Assembly (NCBI GenBank): GCA_022843585.1
Contig: JALHNJ010000011.1
Coordinates: 62,001 to 126,000 of the forward strand
Source of the DNA: Chitinophagaceae bacterium
GTDB taxonomy: Bacteria; Bacteroidota; Bacteroidia; Chitinophagales; Chitinophagaceae
Direction of reading: 5' to 3'
DNA: 64,000 bases
How positions within the stretch are numbered: position 1 is the first letter of the stretch; every line of letters starts with the position of its first letter. The notes beneath the pieces are model-generated. The model searched no databases. It saw only the letters and a program-made list of their open reading frames with translations, and was not told where the DNA came from. Positions 6,467-24,803 of this stretch are shown here, piece after piece. The position numbers were made by a program, and so were the translations under genes.

Positions 6467-6560
6467 TACTTTTTGCAAAACATATACAACACCTAACAAA
6501 TACAATCGATAAAATCACGTTGGTTCATGACTGAATTTTATAGTGCATTAGAACTGCATT

Positions 6561-7022
6561 ATGAAAGATTCAGGAATACATACATGGATTGTTGAAATAA
6601 TAGCTGCATTATTAATTCTACTTTTTGTTTATACAGGAATTACAAAACTTATTGATCAGGCTTCGTTTCGTGGAGTTATTTCAAGATCTCCGCTTATTGG
6701 CAGATGGTCAACTTTTCTTTCCTGGGCTTTACCGATTGTTGAATTATCAGCAGCACTACTTTTATTCTTTCCTAAAACAAAAAAGCAGGGGCTATGGATT
6801 TCGTTAGGCTTAATGATTCTGTTTACAGGATATATTGCCTACATGTTATTATTCAGTGACCATTTACCCTGCTCCTGTGGTGGTGTACTCCAGCAACTTA
6901 CCTGGCTTCAACATCTTGTATTCAATATCATTTTCACCTTCCTATCAGCATTAAGTATCTGGTTCTATACCAAACAACAACGATTTATTGCAATAAACAG
7001 GAATAGCCGAACACCCGTATAA
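6561..7022 (+). CDS. MauE/DoxX-like redox-associated membrane protein
   Basis: 153 residues with four predicted membrane spans. It begins WIVEIIAALLILLFVYTGITKL, cut by a charged turn, and carries the hallmark HLPCSCGG with Cys104-x-Cys106 between spans three and four. Proteins of this superfamily resemble MauE (needed for disulfide formation in methylamine dehydrogenase) and DoxX. It precedes a small secreted protein with two cysteines by 38 bases, so the two may form a membrane oxidoreductase/exported-substrate pair. That partnership is inference. Confidence 0.82.
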   Translation: MKDSGIHTWIVEIIAALLILLFVYTGITKLIDQASFRGVISRSPLIGRWSTFLSWALPIVELSAALLLFFPKTKKQGLWISLGLMILFTGYIAYMLLFSDHLPCSCGGVLQQLTWLQHLVFNIIFTFLSALSIWFYTKQQRFIAINRNSRTPV

Positions 7023-7060
7023 AAAAGTAGGCGCCAATTATTTAAATTAAAACTTTAATT

Positions 7061-7378
7061 ATGAAAAAGTATCTATTGGGAATTTTTGCCGTAGTACTCG
7101 CACTCGGCTTTAGCGCATTCACTTCTCCTAAAAAATCCGCAGCCGTGCTGACTGGAGAAAAATGGTTTCATTTTGTAGGCGACGCCACGGACGCTGGTGA
7201 CCTTGCTAATCCAAATATGTACGTATTGGATGGAACTGGCAGTACCAATACCATTTGTGAGGAGGATGATCTCGATTACCGCTGTGAAATATTGATTAAG
7301 CCACAGGCCGGTGGAACAAAACCTGATCTTGACAATTTTGATCCTATCGCCGAAGTAACCCGGAGCACACCGGAATAG
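7061..7378 (+). CDS. DUF6520 family small secreted protein
   Basis: 105 residues with a clear signal peptide (MKKYLLGIFAVVLALGFSAF) and a mature part of about 80 residues containing two cysteines (Cys66, Cys75) that could form one disulfide. The layout matches DUF6520 proteins, which are common in Bacteroidota next to MauE-like genes. Function unknown. It ends at a strong terminator shared with the convergent TlpA-like gene. Confidence 0.8.
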   Translation: MKKYLLGIFAVVLALGFSAFTSPKKSAAVLTGEKWFHFVGDATDAGDLANPNMYVLDGTGSTNTICEEDDLDYRCEILIKPQAGGTKPDLDNFDPIAEVTRSTPE

Positions 7379-7390
7379 CAATGGCTAAAC

Positions 7391-7427
7391 ATAAAACCAC
7401 TGGTCAATCAGTGGTTTTATGTTTTTT
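7391..7427. terminator. Terminator shared by convergent genes, overlapping the end of a CDS
   Basis: A perfect 12-bp stem (ATAAAACCACTG / CAGTGGTTTTAT) with a 6-nt loop, then GTTTTTTG on the plus strand. It ends the DUF6520 transcript. The minus-strand TlpA-like gene has its last codons and TGA stop (7404-7406) inside this hairpin. The T run is strong only for the plus-strand reading. Confidence 0.85.
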
Positions 7428-8720
7428 GTCACGAATTACGAGCATTAAAATTTCTTTATCCATTTCTACTAAATCTAGGCCATGCCTTATCAATTGCGCT
7501 CTAAATTCATCGACTGTCTTCAAATTTGATTTCATTACGATATCAATCCTCCCTCGATAATTCGTAGCATCAATAATAGGTAAGGTCAAAAAGGATAAAG
7601 AAGTCATAAGCGATTTTAATATGGCGTTTTTTATCGTCATATTTTTTATGGAAATATTCCTATTCTGATCTATTTTTCGAGAGGGTAAGATTGTACTATC
7701 CTCGGCCTTTAATTTATCAATTTCATCCGTTCGTACAAGCGCAAGACACTTAACCAATCTTTTTTCAAGACGAGCCTCGAAAGGTAAATATCTATTTAAG
7801 TCTTGTTGCATGTATTGATAGACCAAATCACTGTCGCTTGCGGGAACATTCAATTCATAACTCAATTTATTCACTTCCTCCCAAGCTGTCACTTCTGACA
7901 CTTCCGAAGGTCTTAAAAATTGATTAGGGTTGCTAGTTTCAAACACAATTCTGTTATTGCGCCTTAAATCAAAACTGCTTATCTCCATACCAAAAAGAGA
8001 ATAGTTATATGCAACATGATAAAGCACAGGAATAGTCGTATTTACCGTCGTTATGCCTGTACCGTCTTCTTGACTATTTCGTATTCTCACCATCTCACCT
8101 GTACTATAGCTAGTCATATTTCTAAAAAGCACTGAATGGTAATAAGATAATTGTAAAACCATTTTGTTTTGTTCGGATACTAACAACTGGCCAGGATCAA
8201 TAGTAGTATTATACCTGCGAGGAAGGTTTATGGGTTGCCCCATTAACGCATTTGCAACAGTGACATTATTAGTATTGTCGTGATTAGTTAATGCTGCCAA
8301 TTTCCCATCTCGATCTACCCACGCATGAAAGGGATCTCCAGTATGCGGAAACATCTTGTAGAGTATGGTGTCATTAATGATCATCGGAAGCCGTGGTATT
8401 GGGATAGCAATCTTATTAAACAATTTGTCTACTTCCAATGCTGAATTTTGAGTCACAAGAATGATCTGAATTTTGTCTCCGAAAATAGTTTGCAAAGAAT
8501 CGAGCCTTGGCATATCTACCATGCAAGCAGAACAGCGGACATTCCAAAAATCAAAAATTACAATTTTACCTTTTAGCTGTCCCAGCGACAAGACCCTTTT
8601 GGGAGTATGGAAAAATTCACCCAAGGAAATATCTGGAACCGTTTCACCCAATGAAATTTCTTGCGAATATGGCATAAGTGTGGTTGCTTGCATAGCTGCA
8701 AGTAGTAAAAAGCGTTTCAT
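7404..8720 (-). CDS. TlpA-like thioredoxin-fold protein with DUF3738-like C-terminus
   Basis: 438 residues with an N-terminal signal-like segment ending near PYSQ. The thioredoxin/TlpA domain (about 22-155) has the redox centre Cys63-Ser-Ala-Cys66 in FDFWNVRCSACMVDMPRLD. The rest (about 160-438) is not thioredoxin. Its last 75 residues (LTLPIIDATNYRGRIDIV, then GLDLVEMDKEILMLVI) resemble the DUF3738/TIGR03435 domain. It is the last gene of the sigma-FecR-SusC-SusD operon, 12 bases after susD. It probably acts in the periplasm in thiol reduction of, or near, the imported ligand. The ligand is unknown. Confidence 0.82.
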   Translation of the reverse strand: MKRFLLLAAMQATTLMPYSQEISLGETVPDISLGEFFHTPKRVLSLGQLKGKIVIFDFWNVRCSACMVDMPRLDSLQTIFGDKIQIILVTQNSALEVDKLFNKIAIPIPRLPMIINDTILYKMFPHTGDPFHAWVDRDGKLAALTNHDNTNNVTVANALMGQPINLPRRYNTTIDPGQLLVSEQNKMVLQLSYYHSVLFRNMTSYSTGEMVRIRNSQEDGTGITTVNTTIPVLYHVAYNYSLFGMEISSFDLRRNNRIVFETSNPNQFLRPSEVSEVTAWEEVNKLSYELNVPASDSDLVYQYMQQDLNRYLPFEARLEKRLVKCLALVRTDEIDKLKAEDSTILPSRKIDQNRNISIKNMTIKNAILKSLMTSLSFLTLPIIDATNYRGRIDIVMKSNLKTVDEFRAQLIRHGLDLVEMDKEILMLVIRDKKHKTTD

Positions 8721-8732
8721 AAGAGACTAGTT

Positions 8733-10106
8733 TTAGTATCCTGGATTCTGTATCAAGGATGGGTTAAGATTGATTTGAGTTTGGGGCAATGGCCACAGCA
8801 TATCTGTACTTTGCCATGTGCCGGGTTTCAGAAGCCCTAAGACAGCGTTAGCCCGATTTGTGCGCTTCAAATCGAACCATCTATGTCCCCATTCCGCAAG
8901 TAATTCAAATCGTCTTTCTTTTTCTATTGCCGATAGTATTTCATCCCTGGTCATGGCAAGGGAGGCGGGAAGGTTTGCTCTTGTCCGAATAACATTAAGA
9001 TCTGCAAGTGCATCCGATAATTTTGAGAGGTGGGCCCTTGCTTCAGCTCTTATCAGGTATGTCTCTGCTAATCGTAGGACCATATAATATTCAGTGATAG
9101 TTGCTCCTGTTCTTACTTTGTATTTAGTAGGGTAATAAAGTGTTTGCGATGAAAATACTCTGGACTTAGTCCAACTAATTTTTCGACGATCATTTGGCTC
9201 AAACGAATTAATAAGATTGTCGGTTAGAAGATAGGTAGGTGTGCTCGTTGTTGTGGAAGGAATAAAAGTGTTCCCTTCAAACGTGTTCCTAGATGGGTTT
9301 ACCGGACGGAGTTGCCAGATTGCTTCACTACTATTCACCAGAAAAACATTATCCAGATTGCTGACGAGGTTATATGATGTTGAAGAAAATACATTATTCG
9401 CTTCTGCCTCAGCTTTAGCATAGTCATTTTGATACAGATATATCCTCGCTAGTAATGCCTGGGCCGCATATTTATTGGGACGTACACGCTCAGCAGAAGG
9501 ATAGTTGGCTCCTAATAACTCTTTTGCATCTTTTAAGTCATTTACCATCTGAGTTATTACTGAAGCTGAGGATGTTCTAGGAATTCTTACATTGTTCAAG
9601 TAATCATTTGAAAGGATGAGTGGCACATCACCAAATAAATTAACAAGGTAGAAGTAACAGAAAGCTCTAATAAATTTGGCTTCGCCCAATATCATATTCT
9701 GAACACCCAACGATAAACCGGCAGATGCTGGTGCTTTTTTAATGATGGAATTGGCTGCATAAATATATCTATAACAAGCGTTCCAGAATGAGCTTTCGAG
9801 TGTTGAATGATTAAGTACAGATAATTCATTTGCAATAAATTCATCTCTAGAAGATCCGGGTGTATAATAGTAAAGTTCATCAGCAGACATTCCTGTATAA
9901 AAAGTCGTGTTTCCGGAAGAAAATTGAGTTGAACTATTCATCATTTCGCTGTATATACCCAAGACTGATTGAACTGCCGTACTATCATTATTGAAAACAA
10001 ATTCTGTCCCAAGCTGATCAACTGGCAAGGGAATATCTGCAAATTTTTTACAAGCACTTACAAAAATGGTAACTATAAAGGCTATAAAAAGAGATAACTT
10101 TTTCAT
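8733..10106 (-). CDS. RagB/SusD family outer-membrane lipoprotein
   Basis: 457 residues. The N-terminus is a lipoprotein signal (SLFIAFIVTIFVSACKKFAD) with Cys at position 19. TPR-like SusD helices follow, including GEAKFIRAFCYFYLVNLFGDVP and AQALLARIYLYQNDYAKAEA, and the late RRFELLAEWGHRWFDLKR motif, which is diagnostic for the family. It forms the lid on the SusC transporter encoded 9 bases upstream. The substrate is not apparent: no glycoside hydrolase or lyase sits nearby, and the neighbour is a TlpA-like protein, so peptide or another thiol-containing ligand is possible. Confidence 0.93.
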   Translation of the reverse strand: MKKLSLFIAFIVTIFVSACKKFADIPLPVDQLGTEFVFNNDSTAVQSVLGIYSEMMNSSTQFSSGNTTFYTGMSADELYYYTPGSSRDEFIANELSVLNHSTLESSFWNACYRYIYAANSIIKKAPASAGLSLGVQNMILGEAKFIRAFCYFYLVNLFGDVPLILSNDYLNNVRIPRTSSASVITQMVNDLKDAKELLGANYPSAERVRPNKYAAQALLARIYLYQNDYAKAEAEANNVFSSTSYNLVSNLDNVFLVNSSEAIWQLRPVNPSRNTFEGNTFIPSTTTSTPTYLLTDNLINSFEPNDRRKISWTKSRVFSSQTLYYPTKYKVRTGATITEYYMVLRLAETYLIRAEARAHLSKLSDALADLNVIRTRANLPASLAMTRDEILSAIEKERRFELLAEWGHRWFDLKRTNRANAVLGLLKPGTWQSTDMLWPLPQTQINLNPSLIQNPGY

Positions 10107-10115
10107 GTTGATAAT

Positions 10116-13100
10116 TTAAAAATTTAACTGGATACCGGTAACGAACATTTTCAACGGAGGTAATCTCAAAATACTCTGAGACTCGGGGTCTGCACCTTTA
10201 AATTTTGTAAGGACGAACAGATTCTGACCCTGAACATAAAGACGGCAGCGTTGCAGGTGAAATTTCTTCGCAAGCTTTGCAGACATTTTCCAAGACAATG
10301 CAACGTTTTTTAACCTGATGTAAGAAGCGTCTGTAATAGCTGCACTGGAGTTTAACATTTTTAAGTAAGCACTGCCAGCAGGAGATGTTAAACGCTGGGA
10401 GTATTTCTGGTAGGTAGCGATATCGCCAGGCTTTTGCCAACGATCAATCAAAGCTATCGACTGATTATTAGCGGAGCCTGGGAGTCCGGCACCCGTAAAA
10501 AATGGATTGCTTCCGTTTTGCTTTTTGAATTCAGTAAATATTTCAAGTTCCCAATTTTTATACTGAATATTATTACCTAAACCACCATAAAATTTAGGCA
10601 GGTTTGTTCCATTGTAAACAAGATCATTATCGTTTATCAAGTTATCGTTATTAATATCTGTGAATCTATATATTCCCGTTTGGGGATCAACACCAACATA
10701 TTGGTAGCCCTTATTTAAACTTAAAGGTCTTCCAATTTCATACTGTGTTGAATAGGTAGATGAGGCAAGCCCGGGAAACGCAACCAGCTTATTTTGTGGA
10801 ATCGTAAAATTAAAAGCTGTAGTCCAGGTGAATTTATCATTTTTAATAGTTATTGAATTCAGCGATATTTCGAACCCCTTATTTTGAACAACTCCGGGAA
10901 AGTTTGTAAGCACATTTCCAAAGCCTGTCTGACCCGGCAATGAGTAGTAAATTATCTGGTTATCACTTCTGTTCCGGTACCAGTTGCCTACAAACTGAAT
11001 ACGATCCTTAACAAATCCCAGTTCGATCGCCAATTCTACTTTTCGGATCTGTTCCCAACTGTAATCTGGATTAAAGAGACGAGACGGAAAAAGTGCGGTT
11101 TGCCCTTGATAAGGATATTGGGTAGCAGTGTAAGTGTCAAGATATTGGTAATCTTGTATCAAATCGTTCCCTGTGATGCCATAGCTAGCTCTCAGTTTTC
11201 CATAGCTAACAAAAGGCAGATGCGCCTTGATAAATTTTTCGTCACTAAAGATCCAACCCGAGCCAACGGCTCCAAATAAAGCAGTTCTCTTACCCGGCCC
11301 AAAACGGGAAGAAACATCTCTTCTTCCAGTAAGGTTAATCAGGTATTTTGATTTGAAATTATACTCTGCCCGCCCATAAATTGATCCATAGTGATAGAGA
11401 GTGTATTGGTTGGAGGAAACTGTAGTTTGTGCCGCTGAAATAGAGTTGATCAAATTGTCATTCGTATAACCATCGGCAACTATTCCCGTTTTAGTAATCA
11501 CCGTTTCCTGCCAGGTAGCGCCAATCATTACCTGCAATTTGTGAGTTGAGCTTTTTTGCCAAATATATTCAAGCTGAGGTTCAATTATCCATCCTTTAGT
11601 TTGGTTGGTTCCAAAAAACGCAGAACCCTTTGGAAGATTAGCAGGATCAAGGGCTGCTATTGGACTCAACAGCTTCTCATCGGTTCTTACAAGATTAGCT
11701 CCAAGGCTTAGTTTTAATTTTAACGATGGAATGATTTTATATCCTGCCAGCACATTAGATGTTAATCTGTCTGTAGTAACTGTATAAGTCTTCAACGTCC
11801 CGGCAAGTGGATTTACAAACGATACTCCTCCTTTACTCCAGGTAAGCTTTCCCAACGAGTCATATAAATCCGGGATATTTGGCGGTAAATTAAGATACTG
11901 TGTCAGGTCATCCGGTTGCAATGCATTTTTACCGTTACCAAAACTAGTATTGAAATTGATATCGAATTTATTATTCTCTGAACGATGAATAACATTGAGA
12001 CTGGCAGCAATCCGTTCGAACTTACGGTCACCAGGAAAAACAGTCGATTCTTTATAATAGTTCCCACCGAAAGTAAATCTCGTCCAGCTATTTCCGCCTG
12101 ACAAACGAATATTGGCGTTAAGGCTATTTGAAGTGTTGCCGATAAATTCTTTTTTCAGATCGGTATATTTCAGCGTATCGTAAAGGAGTAAATCTTTGGC
12201 ACCGGGCAACGTTGGAATAACACCATCGTTTGCAAAAGCTTCACGTCGCATTTGAACGTATTGCCTGGTATTCATGAAATCTATTGTCCGTGTGACTTTA
12301 CCCCAGCCTGAATATACATTGACATCCATCGACGTTTTCCCAGACTTATTACTCTTAGTTGTAATCAAAATAACCCCATTTGCTCCACGGCTTCCATATA
12401 TTGCTGTAGCATCCGCATCCTTCAGGACTTCAATACTCTCAATATCCGCAGGGTTCAAGGTATTAAATGGGCTATTCGCTTGTACACCACTTCCTCTTTG
12501 GGTTACGATGTCTGCATCGTTTAAAAAGGGCATTCCATCGATAACATACAGCGGGCTGATGCCATTCTGAATAGAATTCTGACCTCGTATTACTACATTG
12601 AATCCTGATCCGGGCAAGCCATTTTGTTGGGTCACTTCCAACCCAGGAATTCGTCCTTGCAAAGTAGCCAGAGGATTTGACACTGGTTGGTTGCCGATAT
12701 CCTTACTTGTTATTTTACCTACTGAACCTGTGTTTAAACGTTTGGAAGTTGTGTAATAACCTTTTACAATTGTTTCATCAAGCGTGCCTACTTTGTCCTT
12801 TGTCGTTATAATAAGCCGGGTTTGCTCGTTGATAGGTATTTCCAAATTGTCAATTTCCGCACCACTCAACACGAGCACATCGTTATTGTGAACCCTCTTA
12901 ATAGCAAATTCTCCATTCCCATCCGTCACGGTTATTTTCCGTGAGCCCCGGACTGAAATAGTCACTCCAACCACAGGTTCATTTTTATCATTAACGACTT
13001 TCCCAGTTATATCTATAAAGTCGGCTACGACAGTTACTATTTCTTTGGGCTGTCCTTTACCTGTGATTAGGATATATTTATTTTCAATAGTATAAGAAAT

Positions 13101-13415
13101 TGATTGTTGATTAAAACAATGATCGAGTACTTTCAACAGAGTTGCCTCATGCAAATCAATTGTCACCAGTGAGGAATTAACCAATTGCTCTTTTGTATAC
13201 ACAAACCGGTAATGGCTTTGCCGTTCCACCTCTTTAAAGACTTTTTCCAGGGGCGCATTTTTGAGGGAGATAGTGATGTTTTGCGCAAGACCATTTGCGC
13301 CCGCAACCATGCAGGAAAGGAAAAGGATAAAGGTTGTCATTTTCATAAGCAGGAAGGTTTTTCTGGTCAATGGCAGCCGCCAACGGCAGCCTTTGCAATA
13401 AGCAATTAGTTGCAT
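10116..13415 (-). CDS. SusC/RagA TonB-linked outer-membrane protein with STN signalling domain
   Basis: 1099 residues. It has an extended signal sequence (about 1-45), an STN domain (about 50-118; NAPLEKVFKEVERQSHYRFV) that contacts FecR, and a carboxypeptidase-D-like domain (about 135-210). A plug follows, with NPLATLQGRIPGLEV and the SusC hallmark VLKDADATAIYGSRGANGVI, then a 22-strand-type barrel ending in an aromatic C-terminal strand (FVTGIQLNF). The STN domain together with the adjacent FecR and ECF sigma makes this a transducer-type receptor: ligand binding should switch on its own operon. The long N-terminus is usual for Chitinophagaceae SusC proteins, so I keep the first ATG. Confidence 0.94.
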   Translation of the reverse strand: MQLIAYCKGCRWRLPLTRKTFLLMKMTTFILFLSCMVAGANGLAQNITISLKNAPLEKVFKEVERQSHYRFVYTKEQLVNSSLVTIDLHEATLLKVLDHCFNQQSISYTIENKYILITGKGQPKEIVTVVADFIDITGKVVNDKNEPVVGVTISVRGSRKITVTDGNGEFAIKRVHNNDVLVLSGAEIDNLEIPINEQTRLIITTKDKVGTLDETIVKGYYTTSKRLNTGSVGKITSKDIGNQPVSNPLATLQGRIPGLEVTQQNGLPGSGFNVVIRGQNSIQNGISPLYVIDGMPFLNDADIVTQRGSGVQANSPFNTLNPADIESIEVLKDADATAIYGSRGANGVILITTKSNKSGKTSMDVNVYSGWGKVTRTIDFMNTRQYVQMRREAFANDGVIPTLPGAKDLLLYDTLKYTDLKKEFIGNTSNSLNANIRLSGGNSWTRFTFGGNYYKESTVFPGDRKFERIAASLNVIHRSENNKFDINFNTSFGNGKNALQPDDLTQYLNLPPNIPDLYDSLGKLTWSKGGVSFVNPLAGTLKTYTVTTDRLTSNVLAGYKIIPSLKLKLSLGANLVRTDEKLLSPIAALDPANLPKGSAFFGTNQTKGWIIEPQLEYIWQKSSTHKLQVMIGATWQETVITKTGIVADGYTNDNLINSISAAQTTVSSNQYTLYHYGSIYGRAEYNFKSKYLINLTGRRDVSSRFGPGKRTALFGAVGSGWIFSDEKFIKAHLPFVSYGKLRASYGITGNDLIQDYQYLDTYTATQYPYQGQTALFPSRLFNPDYSWEQIRKVELAIELGFVKDRIQFVGNWYRNRSDNQIIYYSLPGQTGFGNVLTNFPGVVQNKGFEISLNSITIKNDKFTWTTAFNFTIPQNKLVAFPGLASSTYSTQYEIGRPLSLNKGYQYVGVDPQTGIYRFTDINNDNLINDNDLVYNGTNLPKFYGGLGNNIQYKNWELEIFTEFKKQNGSNPFFTGAGLPGSANNQSIALIDRWQKPGDIATYQKYSQRLTSPAGSAYLKMLNSSAAITDASYIRLKNVALSWKMSAKLAKKFHLQRCRLYVQGQNLFVLTKFKGADPESQSILRLPPLKMFVTGIQLNF

Positions 13416-13537
13416 AGCTTTGATTTGTTTGGGTTAAACAATGAGAGTTTACACGACTTGAAAAATGGGTAGCCCAGGCACCGGCCGGTAGTGTTCTAGC
13501 ATTACTGGCCAATTTTTTTATTGGGCATACCCATTGG

Positions 13538-14728
13538 TTACTTCATAACAATAATTTTTTTGTTGTCTAATTTAAAATGTACCTGCCCTGTTCCTTGCAG
13601 GTAGTGTAATAATTTATCAATCGGTTCTGTTCTGTCAACTGTTGCATTAAAATGATGGGTCACTTTATCCTGATAAATAATTTCAGCACCATACCATCGC
13701 TTTACCTGCCGCATAATATTTTCAATCGGTGCATCTGTAAATTTAAATTCGTGATTTTTCCAGGCTACTATATTAATGGTATCTACGTTCGATATTCTGA
13801 TGTCAGCCCCAATAACGGCGGATTGCTGACCGGGAACAAGCATTTTGAAATCACTGCCTTTTGAAACCTTCACCGAACCTTCCAGCAATGTTGTAGTTAA
13901 AGACGGCTCATCGCTGTAGGCATTAATATTAAAGTGTGTTCCCACTACTTCTACATTGACATCAGCCGCTATAACCCGAAAGGGTTTACTGCTATTTTTC
14001 GCCACTTCAAAATATCCTTCCCCACTCAATTCCACTATTCGATCATTTCCAGTAAAACGTGAAGGATATTTCAACATGCTCGATGCATTCAGCCAAACCC
14101 TTGTACCATCCGGCAGTGTAACCTGATATTGTCCCCCCACCGGTGTTGTGAGTGTATGCATAACCGAAGCAGTTTGTACTTCCGTATCATCTTCATACAC
14201 CATCCTGCCATCCTGTGTTTTAATAACCGATATACCACTATCAGCATTCAATAAACCATTCTTAGCAGATGACAGATCAATCACGGTACCATTTTCCAGT
14301 GTCAGCGTTGCTTTATTGCCACCCGGCTGAAGGGTTGATCCTTCCGCAATCAATGGATCTTTTGTTTTCATACTTTTTGTGACATACTGATAAATAAAAA
14401 AGATACCGACTACTAAAATCACTGATGCCGCAGCCATCCACACAGTATTTATCTTAAATCTTTTTACAGGCTTTTTAAATTTCCCATCAGCCAATAATTT
14501 TTCATACGATTGTTCGGCATTCACTTTATCCATCCATGCAAGGTTCTGTTCCAGGTTGTCTTCATCGGTCAGTTCTTCAAACAACTGCATATTACGATCA
14601 CTCTCGTTCACCCAATTATCCAGTTCATCATGATCTTTTTCTGTGATAGTTCCACGTATATAGCCTGCTATCAGGAAGGCAATGCGATAGGCACCTTTAT
14701 CCATATTTGCGTAAGGATTTTCTTTCAT
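13538..14728 (-). CDS. FecR-family anti-sigma factor
   Basis: 396 residues. A cytosolic N-terminal anti-sigma domain (about 12-60, with LIAGYIRG, ELDNWVNES and NMQLFEEL) is followed by one membrane span (about 88-108, WMAAASVILVVGIFFIYQYV). The periplasmic FecR domain (about 170-270; LPDGTRVWLNASSMLKYPSRF and GEGYFEVAKNSSKPFRV) and a C-terminal DUF4974-like domain complete it. It holds the adjacent ECF sigma factor until signalled by the SusC STN domain. It lies 55 bases after the sigma gene and 122 before susC. Confidence 0.93.
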   Translation of the reverse strand: MKENPYANMDKGAYRIAFLIAGYIRGTITEKDHDELDNWVNESDRNMQLFEELTDEDNLEQNLAWMDKVNAEQSYEKLLADGKFKKPVKRFKINTVWMAAASVILVVGIFFIYQYVTKSMKTKDPLIAEGSTLQPGGNKATLTLENGTVIDLSSAKNGLLNADSGISVIKTQDGRMVYEDDTEVQTASVMHTLTTPVGGQYQVTLPDGTRVWLNASSMLKYPSRFTGNDRIVELSGEGYFEVAKNSSKPFRVIAADVNVEVVGTHFNINAYSDEPSLTTTLLEGSVKVSKGSDFKMLVPGQQSAVIGADIRISNVDTINIVAWKNHEFKFTDAPIENIMRQVKRWYGAEIIYQDKVTHHFNATVDRTEPIDKLLHYLQGTGQVHFKLDNKKIIVMK

Positions 14729-14783
14729 GCTATTAAGTTACTACATGATGATAATAAGAGAAGGGAAGTCACCCAAAAAAATA

Positions 14784-15380
14784 CTACAAAGGTTGGAAGA
14801 AATTTTGCAAAATCAGATAAAGGAAAACCACCACCGGTTTCAGGAGCCGTTTGCGCAAGGCTTCGAGTCCCCTTACTTTCTGTGTATTAACTGTATTGGG
14901 AGAAAGATGTAATTCACGGGCAATTTCACCCGTTGATTTGCCTTCCAGATAGTGCATTCTTAATACCTTTTGGTTGCCGGGCGACAAATCCCTGAGAGCG
15001 GTATGAATTAGCCGGTACACTTCGCTCCGGACTGTATGGTCAAATGGAGTATCATTTGTAACTTCACGGGGATTCGATTTTTGGTGGGTTTCGTTCCTTT
15101 TTTGCTCCCTTTTGAAGGCATGGATACTGTCCCGGCGAACGGTTTTGTAGAGGTAGGCCCGGATGGCTGGATAGCTGTTAAGCTTAACATGCATTTTCCA
15201 TGTTTTTATAAGGGCATCTGAGGCAATTTCCTCTGCAATAGGGCGGCTAACCCACCGGAAGGCATAGAGAGCCAGGGCGGGCTGAAATTCCCGGTAAAAG
15301 AAAGCCAAAGCCGATTCCTCTCCTTGCTGAAAAGCGAATGCCTGAGCCTCCCTGGACAGGATATGATCCCCAGTTTTCAT
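14784..15380 (-). CDS. ECF RNA polymerase sigma-70 factor (Bacteroidota FecI-like)
   Basis: 198 residues. Region 2 covers about 25-90, with IAEEIASDALIKTWKMH and IRAYLYKTVRRDSIHAF. Region 4 covers about 130-185: LSPGNQKVLRMHYLEGKST, then the HTH IARELHLSPNTVNTQKVRGL. It is partnered with the FecR gene downstream and presumably activates the susC-susD-tlpA genes. The hydrophobic tail VVVFLYLILQNFF after region 4 is common in this subfamily. It is divergent from the XRE operon with a gap of about 100 bases. Confidence 0.93.
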   Translation of the reverse strand: MKTGDHILSREAQAFAFQQGEESALAFFYREFQPALALYAFRWVSRPIAEEIASDALIKTWKMHVKLNSYPAIRAYLYKTVRRDSIHAFKREQKRNETHQKSNPREVTNDTPFDHTVRSEVYRLIHTALRDLSPGNQKVLRMHYLEGKSTGEIARELHLSPNTVNTQKVRGLEALRKRLLKPVVVFLYLILQNFFQPL

Positions 15381-15418: not shown

Positions 15419-15449
15419 TTGGATATGAGTTGACTTATACTTAAATTTG
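15419..15449 (+). promoter_or_regulatory. Putative Bacteroidota-type promoter of the XRE-ATPase operon
   Basis: TTG at 15419-15421 and TAAATTTG at 15442-15449, 20 bases apart, match the Bacteroidota -33 (TTG) and -7 (TAnnTTTG) elements at the usual spacing. The first gene of the operon starts 35 bases after the -7 box. Seen by eye only. Confidence 0.45.
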
Positions 15450-15484
15450 GTTGACCTTTACTATTTTTACAAAAAATATCCTTT

Positions 15485-15895
15485 ATGGCAACAGATACAA
15501 TAGAAAAGCCGGTTAAGAAACATGTAGGCCAAAATTTGCAGCGAATGCGGATTTACTTTGGCATTAAACAGGATGCTTTGGCAAAGGACTTAGGAATGAG
15601 CCAGCAAGCCGTTTCAAAAATTGAGCAACAACCGGAAATTGAAAGTGATTTATTGAAAAAGATAAGTGAAGTCATTGGTGTCTCACCGGAAATGATTGAG
15701 AATTTTGATGAAGAAAAGGCAATTTACAACATCAATAATACTCACTTTAGAGATAACACCTTTGAACAAGGTTCAACAGCTGCACCAATTGGGCAACAAT
15801 TTAATCCGCTTGAAAAAGTTGTTGAGCTTTATGAGAGACTATTAAAAAGTGAAAGGGAAAAAATAGAAATCTTATTGAACGCTAAACAATCATAG
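15485..15895 (+). CDS. XRE-family HTH transcriptional regulator (first of a tandem pair)
   Basis: 136 residues. An N-terminal Cro/C1-type HTH (about 14-70; IKQDALAKDLGMSQQAVSKI) is followed by a linker with INNTHFRDNTF and an acidic/basic C-terminal helix (FNPLEKVVELYERLLKSERE), probably for dimerisation. This architecture is widespread in Bacteroidota. It heads a four-gene operon with a paralogous XRE gene, an ATPase and a Toprim-like gene, spaced 27 bases, 24-27 bases and a 1-base overlap, so it probably autoregulates that operon. Confidence 0.9.
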   Translation: MATDTIEKPVKKHVGQNLQRMRIYFGIKQDALAKDLGMSQQAVSKIEQQPEIESDLLKKISEVIGVSPEMIENFDEEKAIYNINNTHFRDNTFEQGSTAAPIGQQFNPLEKVVELYERLLKSEREKIEILLNAKQS

Positions 15896-15922
15896 AAATT
15901 CTATTTAAAAAATTGAAATATT

Positions 15923-16330
15923 ATGGAAACAAAAGATTATACAAATATGCTCCACATTGGCAGAAAGGTTGAAAGAATACGAAGGCTTAGGGGAATGACG
16001 CAAACTGAATTAGGCGAAGCATTAGGCATCACAAAACAAGCTGTATCCAAAATGGAACAAACAGAGCAGCTTGATGATGAAAGATTGAAAGTTGTAGCAG
16101 AAGCATTAGGCGTTACAGAAGATGGCTTAAAAAAGTTCAATGAGGAAACTGTCTTATATAATACTATTAATTTCTATGAAAATTGCGGTGTCAGTTCTGC
16201 ATCTATAAATGCACATTCAGAAATAGAAACTCTTAATAACTTTCCGATTGAAAAGACTATTGAAATGTTTGAAAAGTTATTAGAGAAAGAAAGACAGAAG
16301 TTTGAAAAAGTAAAAGGCGCAAAAAAATAA
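15923..16330 (+). CDS. XRE-family HTH transcriptional regulator (second of a tandem pair)
   Basis: 135 residues with the same layout as its neighbour: a Cro/C1-type HTH (about 12-66; MTQTELGEALGITKQAVSKM), a linker with LYNTINFYENCGVS and the final helix FPIEKTIEMFEKLLEKERQK. Recognition-helix residues (TKQAVSKM against SQQAVSKI in the first copy) are close but not identical, so the two may bind related sites or form a heterodimer. The pair probably arose by duplication. Confidence 0.9.
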   Translation: METKDYTNMLHIGRKVERIRRLRGMTQTELGEALGITKQAVSKMEQTEQLDDERLKVVAEALGVTEDGLKKFNEETVLYNTINFYENCGVSSASINAHSEIETLNNFPIEKTIEMFEKLLEKERQKFEKVKGAKK

Positions 16331-16357
16331 TTACAGAAATAGGTTAATATTGTATTG

Positions 16358-17344
16358 ATGTCAAATTTCCTCCGCCATATCCATATAGAGAATTTCAAAT
16401 CAGTCAAGGATATTGAGATTGATAGTTTTAGTCGGATTAATCTTTTTATCGGGCGGCCCAATGTTGGCAAATCAAATATTATTGAAGCGTTGTCATTATT
16501 TTCCATCCCGTTTTTAAAAGAAAATATTTCTAAAAAACTTTCCAATCTTATCAGGCTTGAGAATGAAACTGAATTATTTCATAATGGAAATACAGAAAGA
16601 GACGCCAAAATAAAAACTAACGAAGGCGAATGCAGGTTAGGATATAATCCAAAAGAAGGATTAAAAATTGATATCAACTTCTATAGTAACTCCTTTATCT
16701 ATAAGGTAGATGATAAGCTAAATGTTAAGGGCAGTTTCAGAAATGAGTCTTTTGAGCCTCCAGTCAAAAAATATATGTTTAAGCCGGATGTAAAATACCG
16801 GAAGTCCCACTCAAAATATCTGATACCCCCCTTTGGTTTTAACTTGTTAAGCATCATTGAAAATTATGACGACCTCAAGCAGCAGGTTATCCGGTTGTTC
16901 AGAGAATACAACCTGGAGATAGCCTTTGATAAAGGCAGTCAAACTATCAAGGTTATTCAGTCCGATAAAGAAGACGGCATCTTTCTTATACCTTATAATT
17001 CGATTGCGGACACCTTACAACGAATTATCTTTTACAAAGCAGCGATAGCTTCCAACAATAACAGCATTCTTCTTTTTGAAGAGCCGGAAGCTCATTCTTT
17101 TCCACCTTATATGACCCATCTCACACAAGAGATGATCTATAAAAGGGATAACCAGTACTTCATAGCGACCCATAGTCCTTTTATATTAAACGATTTACTT
17201 GAAAACAGCCGATCCGAGCTTTCCGTTTTTGTAGTTCATTATGAACAGCATGAAACAAAAGTGAGAAGGCTGAGTGAAGATGAGATGCATGATGTATTCC
17301 AGAACGGAGTGGACTTATTTACCAATAATGAAAGCTTCGTTTAA
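16358..17344 (+). CDS. OLD/SMC-like AAA ATPase (single-domain)
   Basis: 328 residues from the ATG at 16358. The TTG at 16355 is directly upstream, but ATG is preferred. It begins like OLD/RecF proteins (HIENFKSVKDIEID), with a Walker A in FIGRPNVGKSNIIEAL (about 31-46), a Walker B in ILLFEEPEAHSFPP (about 240) and an H-loop ATHSPF (about 268). No nuclease or Toprim domain is fused, unlike OLD or GajA. The next gene, overlapping by one base (TAATG), supplies a Toprim-like protein. The organisation recalls two-gene ATPase/Toprim defence systems (PARIS-like, split OLD-like), but the proteins are smaller. The role is inferred. Confidence 0.88.
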   Translation: MSNFLRHIHIENFKSVKDIEIDSFSRINLFIGRPNVGKSNIIEALSLFSIPFLKENISKKLSNLIRLENETELFHNGNTERDAKIKTNEGECRLGYNPKEGLKIDINFYSNSFIYKVDDKLNVKGSFRNESFEPPVKKYMFKPDVKYRKSHSKYLIPPFGFNLLSIIENYDDLKQQVIRLFREYNLEIAFDKGSQTIKVIQSDKEDGIFLIPYNSIADTLQRIIFYKAAIASNNNSILLFEEPEAHSFPPYMTHLTQEMIYKRDNQYFIATHSPFILNDLLENSRSELSVFVVHYEQHETKVRRLSEDEMHDVFQNGVDLFTNNESFV

Positions 17345-17877
17345 TGGATCTGGCAATTATCCCTGAATGCTACGTGGACACAAACCTTGTGGAGACATTG
17401 GTTCCCCCTAAAAAACAATATAATCATCAAAAAGGATGTGGCACAGTTACCAAAGTCATGAAGGAAAAGTTTACTAATGGCTTTGCTGTCGGTATTATTG
17501 ATAAAGACAAGAAGGAAGTTGATTACCTGAAAGAGTTTAATGAGCTTAGCAAAACTGATGGGTTAATTCTGCATAAACATAAAACAAGACCACACTATAT
17601 TATCCAGATAGTTCCAGGTATGGAGCGTTTTATTTTCAAGTGCCTGGCAGATAGCCACCTCTCGCCGGTAGATTTTGAACTTCCAGAAGATTTAGAATTA
17701 TTCCGGAAAGAATCAAAAACTGTAAACAGCAAAGATGATGACCGGTTCAGAAGATTATTTAAAGCCTTAAGAAAGGCAGGCTCTGGAGAAATTCTACGAT
17801 TGGCTGATTTGGTCAATTATCTTAAGGAAAAGAATTACAAGGCAGATGAAAATGAGCTAAAGAATATGATGAATTAG
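17344..17877 (+). CDS. Small Toprim-like protein coupled to the ATPase
   Basis: 177 residues, translationally coupled to the ATPase by the TAATG overlap. The N-terminus reads AIIPECYVDTNLVETLV, with Glu8 followed by Asp12, and then AVGIIDKDKKE, with Asp53-x-Asp55. This is the order and spacing expected for Toprim motifs (an acidic Glu after a beta strand, then DxD). The remainder is mostly helical and charged, without a recognised domain. It could be the nuclease/effector of a two-component ATPase-Toprim system. The family is not recognised by name, and the Toprim assignment is by motif only. Confidence 0.8.
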   Translation: MDLAIIPECYVDTNLVETLVPPKKQYNHQKGCGTVTKVMKEKFTNGFAVGIIDKDKKEVDYLKEFNELSKTDGLILHKHKTRPHYIIQIVPGMERFIFKCLADSHLSPVDFELPEDLELFRKESKTVNSKDDDRFRRLFKALRKAGSGEILRLADLVNYLKEKNYKADENELKNMMN

Positions 17878-17938: not shown

Positions 17939-18112
17939 CACTATTGAATCATTTTCGGATATTTTCGTATCAAATCGTATCATTTGCCTGAATTAAGGCC
18001 AGCAGTTGAACCCAGACAATAAGGAAGAAAGGTATAATGAGTCCTGAAATGTTGGTTTACTAATGCTAATAGATTGTTTGTTGGATGCTATGATTGAAAA
18101 GACAAACACATA

Positions 18113-18138
18113 AAAATCCCCGCTACGGCGGGGATTTT
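18113..18138 (+). terminator. Rho-independent terminator
   Basis: An AAAATCCCCGC stem pairs exactly with GCGGGGATTTT-type sequence around a TACG tetraloop (11 bp), continuing into T's. It lies 236 bases after the Toprim-like gene and probably ends that transcript, or acts as an attenuator for the leader ORFs that follow. Confidence 0.8.
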
Positions 18139-18194
18139 CTTACTAATCAAAAACCATTAACCATTAAACCTTATCCTATGAAAATTCAAATCTA

Positions 18195-18458: not shown

Positions 18459-19616
18459 ATGGCCTACACCTTAGAACCCTGGGATATCCTTATCAGTACC
18501 ACTATTCATCCTGACAAACTTTATCGTTTTCATGATACTAAAGATTGGCAACAGGCTTTAATTCAAGAGTCAGAAGCTGAGATGGAAAAGCTTCGCACCT
18601 TACTGGTTAAGGATTTTGTTGATGGTGCCAAACAAAAGAAAATGGAGTTCCTCGTACAGTTCAACCAGGGGATACTAATAAGGCTGCTTGATAAGCTGCA
18701 CCAATATAGAAGTTCTTCAGCCGTAACTGAGAAAGCTATCTTGCTGTACGAAAGCATAAGCAGCCACGTTAGTTACATTCTGGATTTTATTGAAGAATAT
18801 TTTACCAAGTACTTTGACCGCAGTGAAAAAGTACCCACCAGCTATTTAATCCAGTCCAAAGAAGAAATCATACGGCAACTGGAACATTTACAACAGTTGT
18901 TCGAAATTAATAAGGTAACAGATACTTTACTGACAGATATTGTACTCTCAAATTTTATTAATTTTTGTAATGACGGCAAAACTACTGTCAAGTATAATGA
19001 ACTGATCTATCAGAAGGAATTGCTTAAAGAATTACTTGCCCTGCATAAGCTCAGCAAAGACAAAGGTTTTCAAAAAGCACTTGAAGAAAAACTTATTTAC
19101 ATGAATTTTAATTCTCCCCTGTTTGTGGACTATTTATCAAACCAAATAAACAAACAGGTTGAGCAGGCAAAAACAGATAAAAGTAAAATTTCAATTCTCA
19201 CTACCTTCCAACGACAAATTGCATTGATCCATCCCCGGCCCGCTCTGTCCTTGTCCACTGAATCTCCCGGCGTAAAAGAAAGCATACTCAACATTGCAGA
19301 TAAAGCATTGAGGTATCTGCAACCTGTTCCAGAAAATAATTCCACACCAGCTTCCACCGAAAAAGCATTAGTCCATGTACAATTCAAGGGAACTGAAATA
19401 TATCTCTTCCATAAAGCATTTATAGATGCAGGTGGCGCTCCGGGGGAAACGTACAAAAGTATACTGGAAAAAACAGCCGCTTATTTATCGAACAAAACAA
19501 AAAAAGGTTTCAGCGTAGAAAGCCTTCAAAAAAACAGCGACAAAGTGGACTATGAATCGAAGGAAAACCTGAAACGATTTTTAACTAAGATGATAAGGAA
19601 TATTGAGAGTTACTGA
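18459..19616 (+). CDS. Hypothetical protein, possibly RteC-like
   Basis: 385 mostly helical residues with no signal peptide or membrane span. The first half is a charged helical region. The C-terminal block (about 300-385; VQFKGTEIYLFHKAFIDAG, then FLTKMIRNIESY) has the general plan of the C-terminal part of RteC (a lone helical/beta unit followed by paired basic helices), the regulator of excision and transfer in CTnDOT-type elements. Its position between regulators and the tra operon fits. The similarity is weak and by eye, and the protein is longer than classical RteC. Confidence 0.6.
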   Translation: MAYTLEPWDILISTTIHPDKLYRFHDTKDWQQALIQESEAEMEKLRTLLVKDFVDGAKQKKMEFLVQFNQGILIRLLDKLHQYRSSSAVTEKAILLYESISSHVSYILDFIEEYFTKYFDRSEKVPTSYLIQSKEEIIRQLEHLQQLFEINKVTDTLLTDIVLSNFINFCNDGKTTVKYNELIYQKELLKELLALHKLSKDKGFQKALEEKLIYMNFNSPLFVDYLSNQINKQVEQAKTDKSKISILTTFQRQIALIHPRPALSLSTESPGVKESILNIADKALRYLQPVPENNSTPASTEKALVHVQFKGTEIYLFHKAFIDAGGAPGETYKSILEKTAAYLSNKTKKGFSVESLQKNSDKVDYESKENLKRFLTKMIRNIESY

Positions 19617-22308: not shown

Positions 22309-22737
22309 ATGTTTTCATCTATATCCTGGGAAAGTTATATTTCAACGCTTGCCATATTACTTGTTATCTATTATTCCTTTGTCCTGTATTTGTACTATAG
22401 AAAAGATATTGTTCAATTCTTAACCACGGGCCGGAATAACGGTGAAAACAGACTTCAAAATATGCATACTGATAATACCGGGGCAGAAGAACATGCGGCA
22501 GCAGATAACTATGTGGATGAAGTTAAAGCATTGATTCACCAGGCAGGCTATAGCCGCTTATCCAAAGACGAACTAATTACTTCATTGCAGCAGCTCCTTG
22601 GCTCCGACAGGTTTGAAGCAGTGAAAACACCTGTCGTTAAAGAAAGGATCAATAAGATTATTACCTATGAATGCCGAACAAATTGCTCCATGCACTTAGA
22701 CGAGGAAGACCTGGAACGGGTATGGGTTGGTATGTGA
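22309..22737 (+). CDS. Hypothetical tra-operon membrane protein
   Basis: 142 residues with one N-terminal membrane span (about 10-28, TLAILLVIYYSFVLYLYY) and a soluble helical tail with LSKDELITSLQQLL and a Cys pair (ECRTNCSMH). It is the first convincing gene of the rightward conjugation operon and precedes traE by about 50 bases. A gene of this size and plan in front of TraE is common in Bacteroidota ICEs. No function is established. Confidence 0.75.
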   Translation: MFSSISWESYISTLAILLVIYYSFVLYLYYRKDIVQFLTTGRNNGENRLQNMHTDNTGAEEHAAADNYVDEVKALIHQAGYSRLSKDELITSLQQLLGSDRFEAVKTPVVKERINKIITYECRTNCSMHLDEEDLERVWVGM

Positions 22738-22786
22738 TGATTGAAAGTGCATGGAGCATCTTATAACTATTAATCAAGAATACAGT

Positions 22787-23098
22787 ATGAAAGCAAAAAA
22801 TAATCTGACTAAAATTTTTGTAACGATTACCCTTTTGTTAGTGAGTGCCATACTCTACGCACAAGATGGTAATGCCGGTATCAATGAAGCCAATACAAAA
22901 GTGCGAAGCTATTTTGCAGCAGGGACCAACCTTATGTATGCAGTCGGTGCTGTACTGGGTCTGATTGGTGCAGTAAAAGTGTATAGCAAATGGAATAGCG
23001 GCGATCCTGATACCGGCAAGGTTGCAGCAGCATGGTTTGGTTCCTGTGTATTCCTGGTTGTAGTAGCAACAGTAATCAGATCCTTCTTCGGTGTATAA
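22787..23098 (+). CDS. traE: TraE (DUF4134), conjugative pilin-like membrane protein
   Basis: 103 residues from ATG 22787. The in-frame ATG at 22751 adds 12 residues before the signal sequence and is less likely. A signal peptide (to about LYAQ) is followed by GINEANTKVRSYFAAGTNLM and two membrane spans containing GAVLGLIGAVKVYSKW and AWFGSCVFLVVVATVIRSFF, diagnostic for DUF4134. It probably corresponds to the VirB2/VirB3-type component of the mating channel in Bacteroidota type IV secretion. Confidence 0.93.
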   Translation: MKAKNNLTKIFVTITLLLVSAILYAQDGNAGINEANTKVRSYFAAGTNLMYAVGAVLGLIGAVKVYSKWNSGDPDTGKVAAAWFGSCVFLVVVATVIRSFFGV

Positions 23099-23122
23099 TT
23101 TTAAATCATTAAATCAAGACTC

Positions 23123-24337
23123 ATGAAAACTTTATTTTTTACTTTACTATTGTTTATTTCCTACAATTGTTTTTCACAATACATCGGTGTAAAAGCGAGG
23201 TACACTGAAACAAGACTTGTTGATGATTCTCCCAACCCTCCGAAACGGGAAAACCGTTTGATCCTTTCCTTTTTTGAAGTAACTGGTTCTGGTAATTATA
23301 TACCAATTACTTTATCCAATTATGATATCTGGGTTTATAAGGTGGGTTTGCAATACGGTAGCTTAATGGGAGGAGTACTTGATTCAAGCGGTAATAATTA
23401 TCCGGGTTATGCCTGGCCTGCGCCAAAAGCTGTTGCCTATTTTAATTCTTACTATCCTAATTATATAGACTGCGATCCTAATGCTGCTACAAGATATACT
23501 GTTAATGGCCATGACCTCGATTGCGGCTTTATCACCGTCTCCTATTGGGATATTGATTATGGAACCGGTAACCCCTTTGAGGCTTTTCCTGCACCCAATG
23601 TTTGTCTACCTTATTATCTATGGCCGCATCCTTATGCTTTCTCTCCAGGGAATGCAAATTTCAGCTGGCCGGTTCCGGCAACCGCTCCATATAACTGGTA
23701 TTCCTTTGCGTGTGCCGGGAGTACACAGCAAGTCGTAATAAGAGGTGTGCTTCAACAAGATTCAGCAACCACCATTGTTATATTGCCAGTCAATTTTGCT
23801 AATGTAAAAGGAGAAATTGATCCTTCAAATAAGGCTACTATCTCCTGGTCTAATTTAACTGAGTCGGACATTTTACAATATGACGTTGAGCGATCTATTG
23901 ACGGAACAACCTTCCACTCTATAGGAATGATTGTACCAACCGGAAATAATGGCGGCAGGGCTGATTATAAATTTATATCAGTGCAGCCGGATTTCAGAAA
24001 TTACTACAGAGTAAAAGCAATCGAAACAAGTGGTGGTATTCTTTATAGCTCGATTATATATCTTACGAAAACGACTAAGCCACAATTATTCACTGTCAAC
24101 CCCAACCCGGTAACCAATGGCCAGTTTACTTTTCGATTGACGAATGCGGAACAAGGCCGCTATGTTTTTTCTATGATCAACTCACAAGGGCAGCAAATAA
24201 AACAACAGTTAATCACTCATAGTAGTGGCGACATCAACAGGCAAGTTGATATAACGGGACTTCCCCCTGGCGTATATCAGTTAGTGCTCTGGTCAGCTAC
24301 TGAACGGTTTTCCCAAAAGATTATCACTGTATACTAA
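23123..24337 (+). CDS. T9SS-secreted surface protein inside the tra operon
   Basis: 404 residues: signal peptide (MKTLFFTLLLFISYNCFSQ), an unrecognised aromatic-rich domain (about 20-225), a fibronectin-like segment (about 230-320; DILQYDVERSIDGTTFHSIG), and a C-terminal type 9 sorting domain (FTVNPNPVTNGQFTFRL to QKIITVY). It is predicted to be exported by the host T9SS and attached outside the cell. Located between traE and the DUF1896 gene with gaps of 24 and 20 bases, so cotranscribed with transfer genes. It may act in mating-pair contact or be cargo. Confidence 0.82.
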   Translation: MKTLFFTLLLFISYNCFSQYIGVKARYTETRLVDDSPNPPKRENRLILSFFEVTGSGNYIPITLSNYDIWVYKVGLQYGSLMGGVLDSSGNNYPGYAWPAPKAVAYFNSYYPNYIDCDPNAATRYTVNGHDLDCGFITVSYWDIDYGTGNPFEAFPAPNVCLPYYLWPHPYAFSPGNANFSWPVPATAPYNWYSFACAGSTQQVVIRGVLQQDSATTIVILPVNFANVKGEIDPSNKATISWSNLTESDILQYDVERSIDGTTFHSIGMIVPTGNNGGRADYKFISVQPDFRNYYRVKAIETSGGILYSSIIYLTKTTKPQLFTVNPNPVTNGQFTFRLTNAEQGRYVFSMINSQGQQIKQQLITHSSGDINRQVDITGLPPGVYQLVLWSATERFSQKIITVY

Positions 24338-24357
24338 TCATTAAATAAACAGCCGGT

Positions 24358-24798
24358 ATGCAAGAAATGCTGATAAGGAAGTTACATGAATATATACGGG
24401 ATAATAATCCTGACCTGTTGCTGACGCTGGAAGAGGAAAACAGGGTATCAGATTACCTGCAAGAGAACGTGGCTTCCATTGACAGCCTGATCAATCAATT
24501 GCTGGCTGATAATAATCCAGCATCGGATATCGAAGAACGCTGCATGGAGGAAATGACCCGACAGCTAAAACCCTCCCGGTATAATTATCTCAAAGAAATA
24601 CTGGAGCATGAATTCCCCGGCGAATTTGAAAGGTTTAATCATACGGGCATACTGCAAACAGAAATCATCAACCTGATTACTATTTGCGATCCTGTTTTTT
24701 ATGAGCTGAATTTCTCTGAAGAAAATGATAATGATCGGTATCTGCGCTATGCAGTAACAGGAGCGGTGCATGAATATTTTAAAGTGAGTGGCGAATAG
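24358..24798 (+). CDS. DUF1896 family protein
   Basis: 146 residues, soluble and acidic. The [20 protein letters not shown] start, [20 protein letters not shown] centre and [20 protein letters not shown] end match DUF1896, a family found almost only on Bacteroidota conjugative elements next to large methylase/helicase genes, exactly as here. The stop overlaps the GTG of the next frame by one base. Function unknown, probably a partner of the downstream DNA-processing protein. Confidence 0.85.
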
Positions 24799-24803
24799 TG
24801 AGT

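Follow-up and report, generated by a model that had tools for sequence, protein, structure and literature searches.

A likely two-gene defense module, an OLD-type ATPase and a Toprim-like partner, on a conjugative element of a Chitinophagaceae bacterium

Introduction

ATPase and Toprim modules are widespread in defense, and phage recognition by their ATPases is known for few of them. Passages of one study list ATPase-Toprim associations in OLD, Gabija, retrons, AbiL, and MADS and describe how AriA, an ABC ATPase sensor, sequesters the Toprim tRNase AriB until phage cues set it free (PMC12409363). Excerpts of other papers equate class 4 OLD with PARIS (PMC10568477), describe OLD-ABC dyads with TOPRIM or other nucleases (PMC12839542), and tie AbiLii to RloB and report that TOPRIM_OLD toxins are neutralized by AAA partners in E. 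coli (PMC10440598). Here, we analyzed a 64,000-nucleotide stretch from a Chitinophagaceae bacterium (contig JALHNJ010000011.1, positions 62,001 to 126,000; hereafter, the window), in which an earlier note had proposed a four-gene defense operon at positions 15485 to 17877, encoding two XRE regulators, an ATPase, and a 177-residue Toprim-like protein. We find that the core unit is a gene pair, the ATPase gene (gene 3) and the gene for the 177-residue protein (gene 4). This pair is likely a two-gene defense module in which an OLD-ABC ATPase works with a separate Toprim-like protein; the window's copy rides on a conjugative element, and the mode of action is probably abortive infection.

Results

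The four co-directional open reading frames were recovered on the + strand where the earlier note had placed them, with its spacings of 27, 27, and −1 bases exact; genes 3 and 4 are thus bicistronic, with a 1-base overlap. The ATPase frame as listed begins at TTG 16355, and its 328 residues are counted from ATG 16358. The features of the pair are as follows (window coordinates).

16358 to 17344, + strand: OLD-type ABC ATPase, 328 residues from ATG, presumed sensor and controller (AAA_15, E value 9.4e-15; AAA_21, 1.2e-09)
16451 to 16477, + strand: ATPase residues 32 to 40, which we take to be the Walker A region (conserved residues in 29 alignment rows)
16508 to 16987, + strand: ATPase central region, residues 51 to 210, exchanged in a clade located in nuo operons and only mildly variable in the window's own clade
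17344 to 17877, + strand: 177-residue Toprim-like or RloB-like protein, presumed nuclease effector (invariant acidic residues; weak link to the RloB profile)
17500 to 17508, + strand: codons of Asp53-Lys-Asp55 (both aspartates invariant in 28 rows)

Relatives of gene 4 were detected in 9 of 395 genomes of the phylum (10 by profile search) and in 21 of 294 genomes of the family, the window's own genome being counted in both, and on four named contigs. With loci L001 and L003, which we treat as those of genomes G554 and G467, counted once each, this amounts to 33 distinct places. At 32 of them the ATPase gene lies directly upstream of gene 4 (at L051, a contig edge cuts inside the ATPase), which exceeds chance, so that the pair recurs elsewhere; at the sole unpaired place, G091 (L037), just a decayed end of gene 4 remains. 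Decay or interruption affects four of the 33 places, namely, G091, G507 (one stop in gene 4), and G467 and G528 (in both, the reading frame of the ATPase is broken). Both types of pair, one of the nuo clade and one other, occur together in G600 and in G564.

The same survey does not bear out a four-gene unit. Both small proteins are regulators, as proposed (HTH_3, Table lines below), and an XRE pair stands upstream of the ATPase pair at the window, G467, and G091 and, about 1.5 kilobases away, at G507 (L049); it was not found at 29 of the 33 places, 4 of which have under 900 bases upstream. We therefore rejected the XRE genes as core parts. In G673, an XRE pair precedes a different ATPase pair, 70 of the 294 family genomes hold a relative of the second XRE gene at E ≤ 1e-10, and tandem XRE genes without the ATPase pair were seen within the stretches read of G673, G568, G452, and G586.

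Unexpectedly, at 12 places (L050 to L061; 12 genomes, 7 genera; e.g., L058:5943-9978), the pair is lodged in the operon for respiratory complex I (nuo); nuoG follows directly after gene 4, and nuoF precedes the ATPase gene at 11 of these, L051 being cut before it; L053 shows just the end of nuoF on its contig, and about 400 bases lie between nuoF and the ATPase gene at L052 and L056. In a 29-row ATPase tree rooted at the midpoint, the 11 usable nuo rows fall on one side of a branch (support, 100/99), apart from the window's clade of 8 rows (100/99), of which the window, L001 (G554), and L047 (G600) are near transfer genes.

The center of the ATPase is exchanged among close relatives at the nuo places. 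L057, L058, and L059 come from three genomes of one genus, of which a fourth member, G644 (79% complete), gave no match. Their pairwise DNA identity in 150-base segments is 92 to 99% across nuoF and the ATPase start and 86 to 99% across the ATPase end, gene 4, and nuoG; in the ATPase middle it falls to 23 to 64% in five segments (gaps counted) and is 75 to 82% in the next. At the protein level, residues 1 to 43 are identical, the next ~200 share little, and similarity resumes just before the Walker B segment, which places the replaced stretch at residues ~44 to 245. Over the 55 pairs of nuo-clade ATPases, mean identity is 77% for residues 1 to 50, 24% for 51 to 210, and 63% for 211 to 328; the 28 pairs of the window's clade have 68, 59, and 75% over the same regions, so that the extreme pattern is a feature of the nuo clade and is weakly visible in the window's. 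The trees conflict as well: L057, L058, and L059 form one tight clade in the gene 4 tree (100/99), and in the middle-region tree L058 groups with L055 of another genus (95/95), L059 groups with L060 of a third genus (97/98), and L057 sits unresolved among several long branches. Low identity of the center together with conflicting trees is explained by recombination of the central region, and accelerated point change fits poorly; an assembly error recurring in three genomes with open frames is unlikely. To judge from these sequences, the exchange looks like the swap of a recognition module.

In the genome that carries the window, about 42 bases separate nuoF from nuoG (L198). Among 29 other nuoF-nuoG loci, the gap is at most 150 bases in 15 and longer in 14, and 13 of the 14 widened junctions hold assorted other open frames of 30 residues or more; the comparison loci are the 30 best-scoring of 128 matching genomes among 137 searched, not a random sample, and one is the pair-bearing G474. 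The junction thus tolerates inserts generally, and it is a possible insertion hot spot in the window's family (junctions L184 to L208). With 14 of the 29 other junctions widened too, we gave less weight to a specific guarding of complex I by the pair. By eye, we recognized four-helix-bundle and GxxExxY-type proteins at other nuoF-nuoG junctions and, at L056, ~2.7 to 5.5 kilobases after the ATPase start, in the direction of the gene, several short genes among nuo genes that resemble MNT/HEPN-type toxin-antitoxin pairs. Among the open-access papers listed in searches on nuo-operon defense genes, hypervariable ABC ATPase sensors, and AriA diversity, none reports this arrangement.

The ATPase agrees with the earlier description of an OLD/SMC-like protein without a fused nuclease: its structure model (predicted local distance difference test [pLDDT] score, 88.3) matches PtuA, Rad50, SMC, OLD, GajA, and retron Eco8 in Foldseek. 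The best PADLOC matches are defense ATPases, with AbiLi at the top (PDLC02336; E 2.3e-22; 78 bits; residues 4 to 321 of 328 against 1 to 340 of 340), accompanied by PDC-M38A, ATPase-Toprim_I-B, GajA, and AriA (3.4e-16); the match is not specific because 105 families matched, and PADLOC gives no cutoff for these matches. In an alignment of 29 rows, G32, P34, N35, and G37 are invariant, K38 and S39 are conserved in at least 90%, and the other residues of what is presumably the nucleotide site, D218/T219/R222, E242/P243, and H272, are likewise invariant or nearly so.

In gene 4, Glu8 and Asp53-x-Asp55 are present as the earlier note stated, and E8, C9, D12, V35, D53, and D55 are invariant in a 28-row alignment (A3) that reaches down to 21% identity. 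D55 is only nearly invariant in the 29-row alignment A1 because row L039 carries Asn at that position; this row was later left out on account of a stretch of unknown bases. In the structure model (pLDDT, 95.5), E8 follows the strand formed by residues 5 to 7, and D53/D55 close the strand at 48 to 53. The Toprim topology has a conserved Glu after strand 1 and an Asp-x-Asp after a later strand, and the model shows this placement. Gene 4 is thus Toprim-like by motif; the fold is not demonstrated, and Foldseek gave no structural match to solved Toprim domains (best matches of any kind, E 0.12 and 0.076, with template modeling scores under 0.3).

Profile comparisons place the family at a distance from all references. 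Against alignments built in this analysis, HHalign scored the gene 4 family at 23.9 with RloB (probability, 5%), 15.4 with DUF4276, and 11.8 with OLD Toprim, where the comparison with its own, unrelated ATPase family serves as a yardstick at 14.1; shuffling the columns of A3 reached the RloB, DUF4276, and OLD Toprim scores in 0, 9, and 93 of 200 trials, respectively. The RloB match aligns the Asp-x-Asp together with the P-x-x-E-x-(W/F) motif. The references are linked to each other at far higher probabilities (RloB-DUF4276, 88%; RloB-OLD, 42%; DUF4276-OLD, 27%), so the gene 4 family is more distant from them than they are from each other. Gene 4 has no Pfam or NCBIfam family above the cutoff, and RloB (PF13707) is not among the 24 Pfam families matched at E ≤ 1 by its 28 members. 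DUF4435, which the earlier note had suggested, fared no better: PF14491 is missing from the Pfam matches of the 28 members and from all 61 phylum genomes searched, the window's own included (controls, 2 of 14). PADLOC gave 0 matches for the window's own gene 4 protein and nothing better than E 0.01 for the 28 members (just HEC-01B and Cas3 at E ≥ 0.01), and Protein Data Bank (PDB) sequence searches with the protein and the profile gave nothing below 0.01. The MADS4 model matched one of the 28 A3 members (E 0.013), and a genome search with it was uninformative, with 0 of 228 genomes but also 0 of 14 controls matched. A literature search on DUF4276 found no paper. Separately, the window's own genome holds two further OLD-like Toprim proteins of ~620 residues (G000:C2:174585 and G000:C14:1571).

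The genes in front of the pair and the signals around the operon are listed here.

15429 to 15440, + strand: direct repeat copy 1, GTTGACTTATAC, putative XRE operator (conserved in four element copies)
15450 to 15461, + strand: direct repeat copy 2, GTTGACCTTTAC, 21 base pairs after copy 1 (conserved in four element copies)
15485 to 15895, + strand: XRE-family regulator 1, 136 residues, accessory, remains with the element (HTH_3, 2.6e-09; G091, G467, and G673 have it in the equivalent slot)
15923 to 16330, + strand: XRE-family regulator 2, 135 residues, resembles regulator 1 (HTH_3, 3.6e-11)
18112 to 18139, unstranded: G+C-rich hairpin with a 12-base-pair stem, possible two-way terminator ~235 bases after the operon (hairpin number not above shuffles)

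The two 12-base-pair direct repeats, 21 base pairs apart in front of the first XRE gene, are the sole matches to GTTGACNTNTAC in the window, and shuffled sequences gave a mean of 0.11 matches, with 1 of 100 shuffles reaching two; this test is generous because the pattern was drawn from the same site. Looser copies (up to two substitutions allowed, no shuffle control) lie near the start of the first XRE gene, 21 base pairs apart in L049, L152, and L154 and ~20 in L153. The XRE pair belongs to the cargo slot of the element and probably acts on the tandem repeats, for which we infer the operator role, to repress the operon that encodes it. The promoter-like element that the earlier note saw in front is weak, given 15 sigma-70-like promoters against 12.2 expected in shuffles (Bacteroidota promoters were not modeled). 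Of the terminator that it placed behind, the hairpin exists, ~235 bases past the last gene, at a frequency (3 against 2.5 in shuffles) that lends it little weight.

The conjugative context proposed for the operon is real, with TraG, TraJ, TraM, and a tyrosine integrase downstream.

30622 to 43911, unstranded: conjugation genes and integrase of the element (TraG, 30622 to 33087; TraJ, 36139 to 37299; TraM, 38370 to 39578)
42601 to 43911, − strand: tyrosine integrase, an element gene

The transfer genes are collinear in G091, G554, and G600. Upstream, on the other strand, lie genes for an extracytoplasmic function (ECF)-type sigma factor, FecR, SusD, and a redoxin-like protein and, farther away, an AraC-type regulator. 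This block (5495 to 15380) recurs in G091, G467, G554, and G673. Behind it come transfer genes in G091 and G554; the fetched stretch of G467 has at least homologues of 22751 to 23098 and 30311 to 30637 and part of TraG up to its end, and that of G673 continues with homologues of 22309 to 30299 and shows no transfer gene up to its end. G600 has a similar block with the pair at its opposite end and transfer genes close by, and in G507, G468, and the YR627 contig, similarity to the block is weak and the stretches examined contain no transfer gene.

Between the block and the transfer side, the element has a mobile slot that is common to known defense genes. Its cargo is the XRE pair and the ATPase pair in the window; the same two pairs in G467, farther on with DRT8 (521 bits), BilC/BilD-like proteins (55 and 75 bits), and AbiEi/AbiEii (220 and 296 bits), from a scan of 10 selected proteins of which 5 had no match at 1e-6; a different, 93-residue HTH_26 protein (9.6e-07), the ATPase pair, and DUF6088/AbiEii in G554; the XRE pair, PDC-M29A/B (596 and 220 bits), and Xre/MbcA/ParS and RES in G673 (L151:9250-13146); and the XRE pair with the decayed copy of the ATPase pair in G091. 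The regulators are thus kept, and what follows them differs from copy to copy.

Two other window proteins were noted. At 18459 to 19616, a 385-residue protein weakly matches HamA/DUF1837 (PADLOC, 8.1e-05), with no helicase partner in the scanned neighbors and no solved relative below E 0.01. Within the conjugative element, 24798 to 30299 encode an 1,833-residue protein with Eco57I-type methylase and SNF2/helicase domains that is 62 to 64% identical in G091, G554, and G673.

Discussion

We propose that the ATPase would act as the sensor, its conserved head (an N-terminal Walker A part and a C-terminal Walker B/H-loop part) binding ATP and its central region recognizing an infection cue. At rest it would keep the 177-residue partner inactive; upon recognition, the partner would be freed or activated as a metal-dependent nuclease through Glu8 and Asp53/Asp55 and would cleave nucleic acid, with host tRNA, the substrate of AriB, as a possible target, so that the cell halts before phage is made. 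In favor of this reading we count the pairing at 32 of 33 places, the defense ATPases among the PADLOC and Foldseek matches of gene 3, the invariant acidic residues and the RloB profile link of gene 4, the defense genes that relatives hold in the equivalent cargo stretch, and the exchanged ATPase center next to a near-constant partner.

Several results weigh against such a defense pair with a Toprim-like nuclease. No homologue of gene 4 was found in plasmid or phage collections, and a viral-contig scan gave 13 pattern matches and 0 confirmed. Foldseek matched the gene 4 model to nothing in PDB or BFVD at E ≤ 0.001, its RloB link stands at just 5% HHalign probability, and those to DUF4276 and OLD Toprim are weak or absent, shuffles scoring as high as noted above. 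In Pfam, the 177-residue protein scores highest with OB_RNR_1st, an OB domain unrelated to Toprim (E 0.00086; 19.9 bits, where the cutoff is 28), seen in 3 of the 28 members. Twelve copies lie in the nuo operon, an unusual setting for a defense island, and the ATPase center is only mildly variable in the window's own clade. Finally, passages of PMC3985639 report that Lactococcus lactis AbiLii does not inhibit E. coli growth and that Fusobacterium nucleatum AbiLii is toxic in E. coli yet is not neutralized by its AbiLi, which makes the AbiL analogy itself loose.

Alternatively, the pair could be a toxin-antitoxin or addiction module of the element, in which the 177-residue protein is a toxin, the ATPase or the XRE proteins are the antitoxin, and the benefit is stability of the element and not phage defense. 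The bicistronic genes with their 1-base overlap, the conjugative setting in which relatives have RES/Xre or AbiE modules alongside, the decay or interruption seen at 4 of the 33 places, and the TOPRIM_OLD toxins neutralized by AAA partners in E. coli (PMC10440598) all suit it; we nonetheless think it unlikely, as 29 of the 33 places showed no XRE genes (4 of them with short upstream sequence) and a center exchanged beside a near-constant partner fits recognition better than pure addiction. It is about equally improbable that the partner is a regulatory or scaffold protein with a Rossmann-like fold and no nuclease activity: the lack of a Foldseek match and of any family above the cutoff would agree with this, but Glu and Asp-x-Asp do not vary in an alignment of 28 rows that extends to identities of 21%, and the Asp-x-Asp aligns with that of RloB.

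A housekeeping role, whether as a DNA repair accessory (a RecF-like ATPase with a RecR-like Toprim partner) or as a stress module linked to complex I, seems very unlikely to us. The RecF model TIGR00611 does match the ATPase (2e-07), as do RecF structures (E 0.0004 to 0.0007), and 12 places adjoin nuoG; however, the RecF score of 30.5 bits is far under the cutoff of 172, the pair is found in few genomes (9 of 395 in the phylum, 21 of 294 in the family) and is carried by a conjugative element, and, with 14 of 29 other nuoF-nuoG junctions widened, the site alone says little.

Returning to the defense module, we tentatively advance a broader proposal, which we would not yet back over its negation: that the pair belongs to a hitherto undescribed family of immune pairs, each an OLD-ABC ATPase with a RloB/Toprim-like partner, in which specificity changes when the central recognition module of the ATPase is swapped and the effector and the ATP-binding ends remain constant, with one lineage at least partly in conjugative cargo slots and the other settled in the nuo operon. 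If this is true, the swap resembles the exchange of target-recognition domains in type I restriction systems, and the conserved nuo core genes could provide homologous arms for it. The close alleles L057, L058, and L059, whose differences lie mostly in the presumed sensor region, could allow a direct mapping of specificity. The family would also be an example of a defense-type module lodged within the operon of a main respiratory enzyme and of a conjugative element in which one regulator pair persists and the module that follows it is exchanged.

Judged by PADLOC-DB 2.0.0, Pfam, NCBIfam, and the open-access literature, the pair looks undescribed. The earlier note's suggestion of a new system holds insofar as no Pfam or NCBIfam family matches gene 4 above its cutoff; the general plan is not new, since separate ATPase and Toprim pairs are already known from AbiL and PARIS (sections of PMC10440598, PMC12409363, and PMC10568477). 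Gabija and OLD classes 1 to 3 share the OLD-ABC ATPase fold and differ in that the ATPase here has 328 residues, no nuclease is fused to it, and the scanned next genes include no helicase or reverse transcriptase family; in Gabija, GajA carries a fused Toprim and the helicase GajB is its neighbor. The PADLOC phage defense candidate PDC-M29 likewise combines an AAA ATPase with a small (167-residue) partner and, in G673, follows the XRE pair in the equivalent slot of the element, but it was not found by tblastn at 1e-8 from gene 3 or 4, and PDC-M29A is absent among the 25 PADLOC matches listed for gene 3. PARIS, which responds to Ocr-like phage proteins and cleaves tRNA, has the same separate OLD-ABC ATPase and Toprim-type gene, and its proposed class 4 OLD architecture, an ATPase gene beside a separate gene, is present here with gene 4 as the presumed nuclease; AriA matches at 3.4e-16 but is not the best match, and the 28 members gave no PADLOC match to AriB. 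AbiL resembles the pair in its adjacent OLD/AAA ATPase and small Toprim-like genes; AbiLi is the best PADLOC match, which makes the ATPase AbiLi-type, and the DxD and P-x-x-E-x-W motifs align with RloB. It differs in that the RloB model matches none of the 28 members, the HHalign probability is 5%, and PADLOC gave no AbiLii match (whether it holds such a model was unchecked). As gene 4 fails the sequence tests for RloB and AriB, we place the pair beside AbiL and PARIS and not as either.

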